NCBI GenBank assembly: GCA_902625475.1
Contig: CACOBR010000001.1
Location: 1-64,000 of the forward strand
From: an uncultured Alphaproteobacteria bacterium
GTDB taxonomy: Bacteria; Pseudomonadota; Alphaproteobacteria; Rhodobacterales; Rhodobacteraceae
Length of the DNA stretch: 64,000 nt
Direction: 5' to 3'
The position numbers and the translations under genes are program-made. Below are positions 970-5,244 of the stretch, piece after piece. The notes under the pieces were generated by a model. That model saw nothing but the letters and a program-made list of their open reading frames with translations. It searched no databases and had not been told where the DNA came from. Positions within the stretch are counted from its first letter, which is position 1; every line of letters begins with the position of its first letter.

Positions 970-1108
970 TTCAAATTCTGTTACAAAGGCAAGAGTGGTA
1001 TAATTAATAAGTGTAGATATAGTAATCTTCCATATTTTATTAACTTAAATTTAATATAATTAAATGTAAATTTCACTCAATTATGTAATTTTTTATGTTT
1101 AACCTTAA

Positions 1109-1153
1109 CGGTTATGTTGATAGTTTTCTAAGAATAGAGGATATGTTATAATT
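1109..1153 (+). repeat. ~45-bp intergenic repeat, copy A (GGTTATGTTGATAGTTTTCTAAGAATAGAGGATATGTTATAATT)
   Basis: Shared with 2780-2826, 5198-5244 and 10458-10505; contains TTGATA and TATAAT-like boxes. Confidence 0.65.
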
Positions 1154-1733: not shown

Positions 1734-1749
1734 TCATTGATTAGGTTAT

Positions 1750-1995
1750 GTGTCACCTTGTCACTTGCGAATAGCTGATCAGTTATGCTTTGCAATTTTT
1801 ATTGCTTGTATCATATCCACATTTTTAACATTTCTACTACTTTTTTGGGAAGCATTATTAGGTGCTAGATGGATCTTCAAAACTGTTAGAAATAATAGAG
1901 AGAATATCAGCAACTTTATCTACAATACATACAACTTAACTGAAACCACTTTTCAAAAAATTAAAGTAAGTGTTAATAGGAATAAGTTTAATTAG
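1750..1995 (+). CDS. Hypothetical membrane protein, MSPCHLRIADQ family copy 1
   Basis: 81-aa ORF, near-identical C-terminal half to 4889-5134. Confidence 0.5.
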   Translation: MSPCHLRIADQLCFAIFIACIISTFLTFLLLFWEALLGARWIFKTVRNNRENISNFIYNTYNLTETTFQKIKVSVNRNKFN

Positions 1996-2047
1996 TTTTT
2001 AATTAATATTTATTGAATTAGTTTCTATTTTAAGCTATAGATCAATT

Positions 2048-2115
2048 AGGCATTTAATTACCAACTTGTGCGCCTTTACATCCTGTCTAAAGCACTAAAG
2101 CGGAGGAAATCAAAT
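2048..2115 (+). ncRNA. Putative structured 5' leader (H-type pseudoknot-like), copy 1
   Basis: AGGC-20nt-GCCT P1; CTTGTGC in L1 pairs with downstream GCAC(TA)AAG; ends GCGGAGGAAATCAAATG. Confidence 0.5.
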
Positions 2116-2317
2116 GAATATTCTAGATAAAGAATACCAATCTGTTTTCACAGAACTAGATGATATTGATGATAAAAATAAAATTTATCTTTATAAAAAA
2201 TATAATCAGAAAGAAGTATTTCAGCTTTCTTGTTTTGGTGTGAATGATATTCTACAACTAGAAAGACAAGGCATCCATTTATCACCTCAAGAATATATAG
2301 ATTTGGGTGGGGGATAA
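2114..2317 (+). CDS. Hypothetical protein
   Basis: 67-aa ORF preceded by GGAGG RBS and the repeated leader. Confidence 0.55.
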   Translation: MNILDKEYQSVFTELDDIDDKNKIYLYKKYNQKEVFQLSCFGVNDILQLERQGIHLSPQEYIDLGGG

Positions 2318-2347
2318 TCTAAACAATCATTAATTCAGGCATTTAAT

Positions 2348-2417
2348 ACGGCAATTTAAATTCAACTTGTGCGCCGTGGAATAATTCCAAAAGCACTAAA
2401 GCGAAAGAAAATCAAAT
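2348..2417 (+). ncRNA. Putative structured 5' leader (H-type pseudoknot-like), copy 2
   Basis: ACGGC-20nt-GCCGT P1 (compensatory relative to copy 1); same CAACTTGTGCGCC and AAAGCACTAAAGCG; ends AAATCAAATG. Confidence 0.5.
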
Positions 2418-3013: not shown

Positions 3014-4768
3014 TTAAAAGCTTAAGACATATATGCCGCCTGTTAAAAAGATACTTTTTTCTTTTCTAAGGTGATTAGTAGAAAAATGAGAGATACTGTA
3101 GTCAAATTTCTCACATAGATTTTCAATGTAACTTTTTGAATGTGAGTATCGTGCAGACCTACGAATATGATAGCCATCATTTTCTGTATGTTCAGTAGAA
3201 AAAACTAAATGACCAGATTTTTTATTTCTAGACTTAATCAATCTAAATATTTCAGTGAGCTCACCGACATAAATAAAGACATCTAAGGCTATATAATAAT
3301 CAAAATCAAGAGGCATTGTGGATAGATATTCCACTATATCAGTTTGTGTTAATTGATCGTAAACATTTTTTTGATTAGCGATTGCTAGCATTTTTTTTGA
3401 CAAATCAATGCCCTCAAGTTTTGAGCAATAATTTTTTACCTCTATTCCAAATAATCCAGTCCCACAACCTAAATCTAAAACAGAACCCAGCGGCTCTTTA
3501 TTAGTTGGTTTAATTAAAATATCTTTTATTAATTTAGGAATTTTATATTCTAATTTGTCAACGAGGGAGGCTTCAAATGTATCAGAATATTCGTCAAATA
3601 ATTTTTCAACAAACTCCCTAGGTGCTGTTTGATTTATATTTCCAGTAAGTGCAGATAGCATATGCTTCGCAGTTCCACAATTAGGTTTTATAGAAAGTGT
3701 TTTATTGTAAGCCTCAATGGCTTCTGTTAAATTTCCTTGCTCTTTAAGAACAATGCCCATGTTGTTATAGGCATCAGCATAATCAGGTTTGATAAATACA
3801 GCTTTTTTATAAGCCTTTATGGATTCTTCCGACTTGCCTTGATCTTGAAGAACAGTGCCCATGTTATTGTAGGCTTCAGCATAATCAGGAATAATGGAGA
3901 GAGCTTTGTTAAAAGCCTCTATCGCTTCTTCCCACTTGCCTTGATCTTTGAGAGCATTGCCCATACTGTTAAAGGCTTGAGCGTAATCAGGCTTGAGTGA
4001 AAGAGCTTTGTTAAAAGCCTCTATCGCTTCTTCCGACTTGCCTTGATCTTTGAGAGCAAGGCCCATATTGTGGTAGATATCAGCATCATTTGGATTTATA
4101 GATAGTGCATTATTGTAAGCCTCAATGGCATTTTCCAACTTATTTTGATCTTGGAGTGTAACGGCCATATTATAAAAGGTATCAAAACTATCAGGATTAA
4201 CTGATAGAGCCTTCTTGAAAGCTTCTATTGCCTCATCATATTCTTCATTTTTTCCTAATGCTACACCTAAATTATTATAAGCTTCGTAGTACTGAGGATT
4301 AAGTTCAATTGCTCTTTCATAAACCAAGATTGCTTCATTATATTCCTCCATCTCTTTATAGACATTACCGAGGTTATTATATGCTTCAGCATAGTCTGGC
4401 TGAAGTTCAATGGCCTTTTTAAGATTAGACTTAGCTTCTTGATATTTCCCCAAATTAATAAGTACAGCCCCTAGATTATTATAAGCATGAGGATGATGGG
4501 GGCGAAGTTTGATGACTTTATGAAAATGTTCAATCGCAATCTCTTTATGTCCCTTTTCGAAAGAGATTGCCCCTATTATATTGTGAAGGATTAAAGTGTG
4601 GGGATATTCTTTAATTAGCTGAGAAGACCGAGATAAAACATCATCATACTTACCCTGATGATATAGGGTGACAAGCGCATTAATAACTTCTTTAGGCGCA
4701 CTTTTGTGATTTATCTTTTCAAGCATAGGGGGGGCTAAATCGTTATATTCCAGTCCTCTCCCTCGCAA
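3014..4768 (-). CDS. TPR-repeat protein with C-terminal SAM-dependent methyltransferase domain
   Basis: Multiple 34-aa TPRs (A.YNNLG..L...G...EAI..Y..A...KP.Y) followed by VLDLGCGTGLFGIE methyltransferase motif. Confidence 0.9.
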   Translation of the reverse strand: MRGRGLEYNDLAPPMLEKINHKSAPKEVINALVTLYHQGKYDDVLSRSSQLIKEYPHTLILHNIIGAISFEKGHKEIAIEHFHKVIKLRPHHPHAYNNLGAVLINLGKYQEAKSNLKKAIELQPDYAEAYNNLGNVYKEMEEYNEAILVYERAIELNPQYYEAYNNLGVALGKNEEYDEAIEAFKKALSVNPDSFDTFYNMAVTLQDQNKLENAIEAYNNALSINPNDADIYHNMGLALKDQGKSEEAIEAFNKALSLKPDYAQAFNSMGNALKDQGKWEEAIEAFNKALSIIPDYAEAYNNMGTVLQDQGKSEESIKAYKKAVFIKPDYADAYNNMGIVLKEQGNLTEAIEAYNKTLSIKPNCGTAKHMLSALTGNINQTAPREFVEKLFDEYSDTFEASLVDKLEYKIPKLIKDILIKPTNKEPLGSVLDLGCGTGLFGIEVKNYCSKLEGIDLSKKMLAIANQKNVYDQLTQTDIVEYLSTMPLDFDYYIALDVFIYVGELTEIFRLIKSRNKKSGHLVFSTEHTENDGYHIRRSARYSHSKSYIENLCEKFDYSISHFSTNHLRKEKSIFLTGGIYVLSF

Positions 4769-4888
4769 TTATTATACCATATCTAAACCTATACAGCTCT
4801 TTATGACGAGAAAAATCTTGATACAGAAAAGGTGATAAACTTTATTTGGTTCAATGAATTAAAATGTAACTCTTTTTGATTAGATTAT

Positions 4889-5134
4889 GTGTCACCTTGT
4901 CACTTGCGAATAGCTGATCAGTTTTGCAATGTTGTATTGATGGTTTGCGTCATATCTACATTTTCAACACTTCAATTACTTAGTTGGGGAGCATTATTAG
5001 GTGCTAGATGGATCTTTAAAACTGTTAGAAATAATAGAGAGAATATCAGCAACTTTATCTATAATGCATACAATTTACCTGAAACTACTTTTCAAAAAGT
5101 TAAAGTAAGTATTAACAGGAATAAGTTTAACTAA
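4889..5134 (+). CDS. Hypothetical membrane protein, MSPCHLRIADQ family copy 2
   Basis: 81-aa ORF paralogous to 1750-1995. Confidence 0.5.
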   Translation: MSPCHLRIADQFCNVVLMVCVISTFSTLQLLSWGALLGARWIFKTVRNNRENISNFIYNAYNLPETTFQKVKVSINRNKFN

Positions 5135-5197
5135 ATTTTTGTTTGTGTTAATTCTGTTTTTTTATTAATAGTCCTGACAACTATTCTACAATACTAA

Positions 5198-5244
5198 ATG
5201 GTTTTGTTGATAGTTTTCTAATCAAAGAGAATATATTATTATAG
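5198..5244 (+). repeat. ~45-bp intergenic repeat, copy C
   Basis: GGTTTTGTTGATAGTTTTCTAATCAAAGAGAATATATTATTATAG. Confidence 0.6.

Follow-up and report, generated by a model that had tools for sequence, protein, structure and literature searches.

A divergent subtype of the SAM-V riboswitch fold likely controls exchangeable cargo genes of phages and genomic islands

What might two tandem copies of a structured leader, each placed before a different orphan ORF, sense and control? The question arises in a 64 kb stretch of DNA, here called the window, which forms the end of a 150-kb contig in an incomplete genome of 1.5 Mb. The initial annotation had proposed two copies with P1 stems AGGC/GCCT and ACGGC/GCCGT and a 20-nt loop, arranged as an H-type pseudoknot akin to SAM-II or SAM-V, and had inferred a riboswitch-like element of a possibly divergent or unassigned class. 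Inspection of the sequence confirmed both copies, their P1 stems and the loop (Table 1), which in each copy is followed by GCACTAAAGCG ahead of the RBS and ATG; GCACUAAAGCGGAGG precedes the ATG at 2114 in copy 1, and GCACUAAAGCG precedes the ATG at 2416 in copy 2. The second helix required correction: the proposed GTGC-GCAC pairing held, but the proposed CTT-AAG pairing across a 2-nt bulge did not, and P2 consists in both copies of UUGUGC paired with GCAC-U-AA, with one bulged U that corresponds to U47 of SAM-V. The two copies form a 66-nt repeat with 71% identity.

Table 1 Features of the two leaders and their ORFs, in window coordinates.
Feature	Position	Strand	Remarks
Leader copy 1	2042..2111	+	SAM-V-type aptamer and expression platform; basis RF01826, model R2, sequence
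Copy 1 P1	A2048-C2051 with G2072-U2075	+	AGGC/GCCU
Copy 1 third strand	U2053-U2055	+	
Copy 1 P2	2066-2071 with 2092-2095 and 2097-2098	+	
Copy 1 ligand-site residues	U2096; A2099	+	bulged U2096 = U47; A2099 = A50
Copy 1 P3	2078-2080/2084-2086	+	
Copy 1 Shine-Dalgarno	2102-2106	+	
Orphan ORF, 67 aa	2114..2317	+	under leader 1
Leader copy 2	2343..2412	+	between the two ORFs; basis RF01826, model R2, sequence
Copy 2 P1	A2348-C2352 with G2373-U2377	+	ACGGC/GCCGU
Copy 2 third strand	U2355-U2357	+	1 nt later than in copy 1
Copy 2 P2	2367-2372 with 2393-2396 and 2398-2399	+	
Copy 2 ligand-site residues	U2397; A2400	+	bulged U2397
Copy 2 P3	2378-2381/2385-2388	+	
Copy 2 Shine-Dalgarno	within 2401-2410	+	weak
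Orphan ORF, 117 aa	2416..2769	+	under leader 2

At its own cut-offs, Rfam gave no match anywhere in the window. When positions 1900-2600 were searched permissively (matches with E up to 10), the two best matches by far were to SAM_V (RF01826), both covering model positions 1-66, with 31.2 bits (E 0.005) for copy 1 and 29.5 bits (E 0.012) for copy 2; neither reaches the gathering cut-off of 41 bits. SAM-II (RF00521) matched neither the window leaders (E up to 10) nor any other part of this genome, and the Rfam SAM/SAH family matched neither positions 1900-2600 (E up to 10) nor the metK loci described below (E up to 0.5). A covariance model, R2, built from 13 metK, metY and bhmT leaders of other bacteria and containing no sequence of this genome, scored copy 1 at 61.5 bits (E 1.6e-12) and copy 2 at 66.7 bits (E 9.4e-14) in 151 kb. 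The leader match therefore exceeds chance, with full-length SAM_V matches and R2 E values of about 1e-12 to 1e-13. Across the whole genome, R2 recovered four tandem copies only, plus one chance-level match; Rfam likewise placed a second tandem SAM_V pair at C1:113426-112965 (minus strand), whose leaders stand before a 58-aa ORF and a paralogue of the 117-aa ORF with 74% identity. Weak Rfam matches on two other contigs of this genome (C16 and C18) were taken as chance because they lack the UUGUGC/GCAC core.

Other genomes extend this assignment. SAM_V matches were present in 4 of 11 same-genus genomes, one of them above cut-off; the relatives that pass the RF01826 cut-off include L010 with 42 bits and three phage leaders (L022, L026 and L028) with 43-46 bits. 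At the metK leaders, Rfam SAM_V gave no match with E up to 0.5, and its cut-off misses most members of this subtype. The proposed pseudoknot layout thus held, as SAM-V type by RF01826 and R2 and not as SAM-II. Of the suggested "divergent or unassigned class", the first part held and the second did not: we regard the leaders as a divergent SAM-V subtype because it precedes metK, metY or bhmT elsewhere and because some phage members pass the SAM_V cut-off.

Neither window ORF matched a Pfam or NCBIfam family above cut-off, and no methionine or SAM gene was found under either window leader with these collections, as the initial annotation had stated, although metK, metY and bhmT do lie under other members of the family. 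Both ORFs are under purifying selection, with a dN/dS of about 0.23 for the 67-aa ORF against a relative (dN 0.40, dS 1.75) and about 0.11 for the 117-aa ORF against its paralogue (dN 0.16, dS 1.42). Relatives of the 67-aa ORF occur in two genomes (G005 and G006), each behind its own SAM-V-type leader. The 117-aa ORF has one paralogue, 74% identical, which lies behind a SAM-V-type leader on an island at G000:C1:113035-113379; a search of 101 genomes found no relative beyond its own. The AlphaFold model of the 117-aa protein was uninformative (pLDDT 39); that of a 165-aa cargo family reached pLDDT 44, and both were left out of the fold search.

Direct repeats of 278 nt with 86% identity (window 1737-2014 and 4876-5153), both containing an 81-aa ORF, lie on either side of the leader cassette and a TPR-methyltransferase gene (3014-4768); they possibly delimit a segment that was duplicated or inserted. 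A 49-nt intergenic repeat occurs three times, at window 1104-1152, 2773-2821 and 5194-5242, one occurrence being directly after the 117-aa ORF.

One alternative is that the two leader copies arose simply because a coding or promoter segment was duplicated locally. The 278-nt repeats that flank the cassette speak for it, since they imply that the region underwent duplication. Against it, the leaders lie outside these repeats, the copies differ by compensatory stem changes, their ORFs are unrelated, and homologues of the leader stand before dozens of unrelated ORFs, so that this explanation is all but excluded. The initial annotation had accepted that its reading would fail if there were no homologues, or if the region were a duplicated coding or promoter segment; neither is the case, since the leader is conserved before ORF families among which no homology could be detected.

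The homologues were collected with the exact pattern (C)TTGTGCNCC...AAAGCACTAAA(G), which fixes P2 and does not include the third strand. This search yielded 31 viral contigs as well as 100 stretches from species-representative genomes, most of them of marine Alpha- and Gammaproteobacteria; by a rough estimate, 2-3 matches in the genome collection would be expected by chance. P1 is present at the expected place in 141 of 149 distinct sites (all loci), and among sites with a 14-nt loop (n=119) two U of the third strand are invariant and the first U is kept in 106. A blastn search of named phages and plasmids with the leader found no credible match. The leader also occurs in three contigs with misfit names, recorded as Ruminococcaceae (L064), Dehalococcoidia (L151) and Flavobacteriales (L149), which probably reflect binning contamination.

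Compensatory changes occur in P1, P3 and P2a across some 140 related leaders. In an alignment of 64 non-redundant sequences (A1), P1 pair 4 is AU, CG, GC or GU, P3 pair 2 is GC, CG or AU, and P3 pair 3 is CG, AU or UG. Pairing is retained in 90.4% of cells, compared with 83.5% after shuffling and 28-50% with slid partners, and two-sided changes are seen in 62 cells, compared with 16 after shuffling. P1 and P3 therefore covary, P1 as had been claimed for the two copies from sequence alone, whereas the invariant P2 provides no evidence of covariation because the search pattern fixed it. Within P2a, pair 15:53 (register -4/+3) is CG in 133 leaders and UA in 7, and pair 14:54 (register -5/+4) is CG in 58, UA in 51 and UG in 25; this covarying register covers the Shine-Dalgarno sequence and is the one proposed for SAM-V (PMC6061858). 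Single-strand folding of the window copies without pseudoknots showed no excess stability (z +1.25 and -0.74), which is expected of an H-type pseudoknot.

The residues of the ligand site are conserved as well. In SAM-V, where third-strand uridines contact SAM, U9 is at 3.3 A from the ligand's sulfonium and the ends of SAM are held by U47 and A50 (PMC6061858); U20, U47, A48 and A50 are present in the sequence of both window copies. Several features count against the SAM-V reading. Compared with SAM-V, the loop that separates the third strand from P2 has 2 extra nt; in copy 2, the UUU is displaced by one position and the Shine-Dalgarno sequence is weak. Position 18 is C in both window copies, whereas it is A in SAM-V, where A18 touches A50; C is also found in most of the family, including the metK, metY and bhmT leaders of the subtype, with A in 15 of 141. 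Positions 11, 17 and 52 switch together between GGA and AAC, with no crossover between the states among leaders with 14-nt loops, a linkage that could reflect a base triple atop the binding site or simply mark two lineages. Each state is found both with orphan genes and with metabolic genes: the window leaders belong to the AAC subtype, which also precedes bhmT (L055 and L094), and GGA leaders also precede orphan genes.

Evidence that bears on the ligand comes from members of the subtype that precede metK (methionine adenosyltransferase), metY (O-acetylhomoserine sulfhydrylase) and bhmT (betaine-homocysteine methyltransferase). Leaders before metK and metY occur in marine bacteria, the cultured Lentibacter sp. 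XHP0401 among them. Each of four metK leaders is preceded, further upstream, by a SAM-I/IV riboswitch that scores above cut-off. In these loci (L063, L064, L109 and L148) it lies about 490-600 nt upstream and the SAM-V-type leader directly precedes metK; in L148, the Lentibacter locus, a 136-aa ORF stands between the two. The only SAM-I/IV riboswitch of the present genome, also above cut-off (C1:114121-114029), lies on the same strand as the second tandem pair, some 600 nt upstream of it, and islands at L021/L146 and L088 share this layout. The upstream distance is 93 nt in L090 and about 2.2 kb in L066. As SAM-I/IV is a structurally unrelated SAM sensor, its presence in these operons independently supports SAM as the signal. 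Leaders near or above the Rfam cut-off also directly precede an OmpW-family outer-membrane protein in three genomes (L155, L156 and L157 in G383, G306 and G085), and in six OCS116/PS1-clade and similar contigs (L058, L069, L110, L112, L131 and L143) the leader precedes a conserved 430-aa protein, without a Pfam match, that adjoins a UmuC-like gene.

Two further explanations must be weighed against these data. First, the fold may be that of SAM-V while the subset before orphan genes has shifted its ligand to SAH, decarboxylated or otherwise modified SAM, or a phage-made nucleotide. Sulfur genes are absent downstream of this subset, position 18 is not that of SAM-V, and the linked difference at positions 11, 17 and 52 splits the family; moreover, SAM aptamer variants can take a different ligand, as shown by a SAM-I variant that binds spermidine (PMC10853860), which makes this a real rival. 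However, the positions with a known role in recognising SAM and excluding SAH (U9/U20, U47 and A50) are retained, neither the AAC nor the GGA state is confined to one kind of downstream gene, and SAM-I/IV aptamers stand in some of the same operons. We therefore consider a ligand shift unlikely. Second, the pseudoknot might set translation constitutively or bind a protein without sensing any metabolite, with mobile elements having copied a reliable expression signal. In favour of this, the leader is strongly conserved in sequence before very different genes, and a Shine-Dalgarno sequence and an ATG 7-18 nt downstream nearly always follow it. Yet the SAM-site residues would then need no conservation, and the same leader precedes three SAM or methionine genes and occurs in operons headed by SAM-I/IV; this explanation, too, appears improbable.

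Beyond the metabolic genes, the OmpW porin and the 430-aa protein, the downstream genes are mostly unrelated orphan ORFs that fall into many small families. Profile-profile comparison detected no relation between the cargo families and no hidden common family, and searches of Pfam, NCBIfam, PHROGs and PADLOC matched a few of the other cargo proteins to families, for example SNF2 helicase, OmpW and Mrr-like. Leaders are carried by a phage group with SU10-type portal and capsid genes, where all 15 leaders (on 14 contigs) have as their neighbour one and the same large, functionally uncharacterised gene, which runs on the opposite strand 115-1654 nt away; their other flank often holds portal or terminase. 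This one site is occupied by at least 8 unrelated ORFs. Some leader-carrying phages (L033, L034 and L078) have group I introns near their capsid genes.

In bacteria, the cassette is often found on islands that carry defence genes and are linked to an integrase or a tRNA. A tyrosine recombinase lies near the leader in 10 of 67 orphan-type loci and in none of 19 other loci, a count limited to the kinds of tyrosine recombinase searched and to short contig stretches, and tRNA genes are often nearby. Among the neighbours in 22 selected loci are Zorya type II, NERD-helicase and restriction-type genes, and DISARM-type genes are found among the island defence genes. The second tandem pair of the present genome (L007, G000:C1:106000-122000) lies between a phage-type integrase with an AlpA-like gene and genes for DrmA/DrmB and a NERD-UvrD helicase. 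A protein of some 200 aa, with RRSFLIGSG as its twin-arginine-like start, recurs on islands and is often encoded next to SAM-V-type leaders (L007:5913-6509, L101, L085, L090, L123 and others). No integrase or tRNA was seen near the window pair, whose mobility is therefore inferred from the paralogous copy. The mobile context of the family is shown, while the role of the cargo and the benefit of controlling it are inferred; to our knowledge, the cargo genes have no SAM-linked role.

With SAM-V residues and the P2a register both present, the simplest reading is an OFF switch whose cargo is made at low SAM, and we consider it likely that the window leaders belong to a SAM-V subtype and act as riboswitches that turn translation off. 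SAM binding and the direction of control are inferred, and no binding, probing or expression data are available; the earlier claim of a riboswitch-like element is supported with that reservation. In known SAM-V RNAs, SAM bound in the P2 triplex closes P2a over the Shine-Dalgarno sequence (PMC6061858), and as P2a pairs with that sequence here, translational repression is the expected outcome. In the proposed mechanism, the mRNA leader would fold into an H-type pseudoknot of P1 and P2 with a small P3 hairpin, and SAM, when plentiful, would occupy the P2 major groove, flanked by bulged U47 and A50 and lying against the U20:A48.U9 triple. Bound SAM would lock the third strand and P2a, which contains the Shine-Dalgarno sequence, and leave the downstream ORF untranslated; a fall in SAM would open P2a and allow the ORF to be made. 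Since the second window leader lies between the two ORFs, each gene of the presumed transcript would have its own switch. A scan for sigma-70 promoters and terminators around the pair found nothing above shuffles.

More broadly, it is likely that mobile elements use this subtype to control swapped cargo genes, SAM binding again being inferred, and the leader would then serve as a transferable unit through which mobile cargo responds to the SAM level of the host. Possible reasons for phages or islands to monitor SAM include methionine or SAM limitation of the host and loss of SAM during infection. A bolder and more speculative reading is that a portable SAM-gated cassette travels with mobile elements in marine Proteobacteria, at a single fixed site in one phage group and on defence islands linked to tRNAs, and carries ever-changing small genes, which could be released when SAM drops through methyl-donor use or SAM-degrading enzymes in infection, and which could act in phage-host or phage-phage conflict. 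Riboswitches are generally thought to serve host metabolism. If the proposed control is correct, the SAM level would be a cue for mobile accessory genes, with one small aptamer reused before unrelated phage and island genes. The leader family also defines a coherent and testable regulon of small unknown proteins. Phage riboswitches have been called rare (PMC9004378), and in the literature searched no paper dealt with SAM riboswitches of phages or of defence islands. SAM-V itself is known, and this subtype may have been mentioned before, as the original paper (Poiata 2009) lay outside the literature searched.

Among known systems, the closest is SAM-V (RF01826; metY and bhmT of Ca. Pelagibacter ubique; PDB 6FZ0). 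The order of P1, P2 and P3 is the same, as are the UUGUGC/GCACUAAA core, the AUUU third strand, bulged U47 and A50, the placement of P2a over the Shine-Dalgarno sequence directly before the gene, and metY and bhmT among the targets (PMC6061858). The present family differs in its loop before P2, usually 14 nt rather than 12, in having C rather than A at position 18 and G rather than A after A50, and in a P3 that is usually 3-4 bp. Unlike SAM-V, the window copies and many others fall below the Rfam cut-off, and the targets are mostly orphan genes, many of them mobile, rather than sulfur genes. SAM-II (RF00521, SAM_alpha) lacks the P3 hairpin that these leaders have (PMC6061858). Tandem SAM-II/SAM-V and SAM-I/IV with SAM-II "bi-mechanism" riboswitches (PMC9481103) resemble the present operons in placing two classes of SAM sensor on one transcript; here, however, SAM-I/IV lies upstream and the SAM-V-type leaders further down, mostly with an ORF between them, a pairing absent from the list in that paper. 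The glutamine riboswitch of methylophage Melnitz (PMC9004378) is likewise a metabolite riboswitch in a marine phage, but it belongs to another ligand class and is tied to a tmRNA gene, whereas the leaders described here precede variable small ORFs at one phage site.
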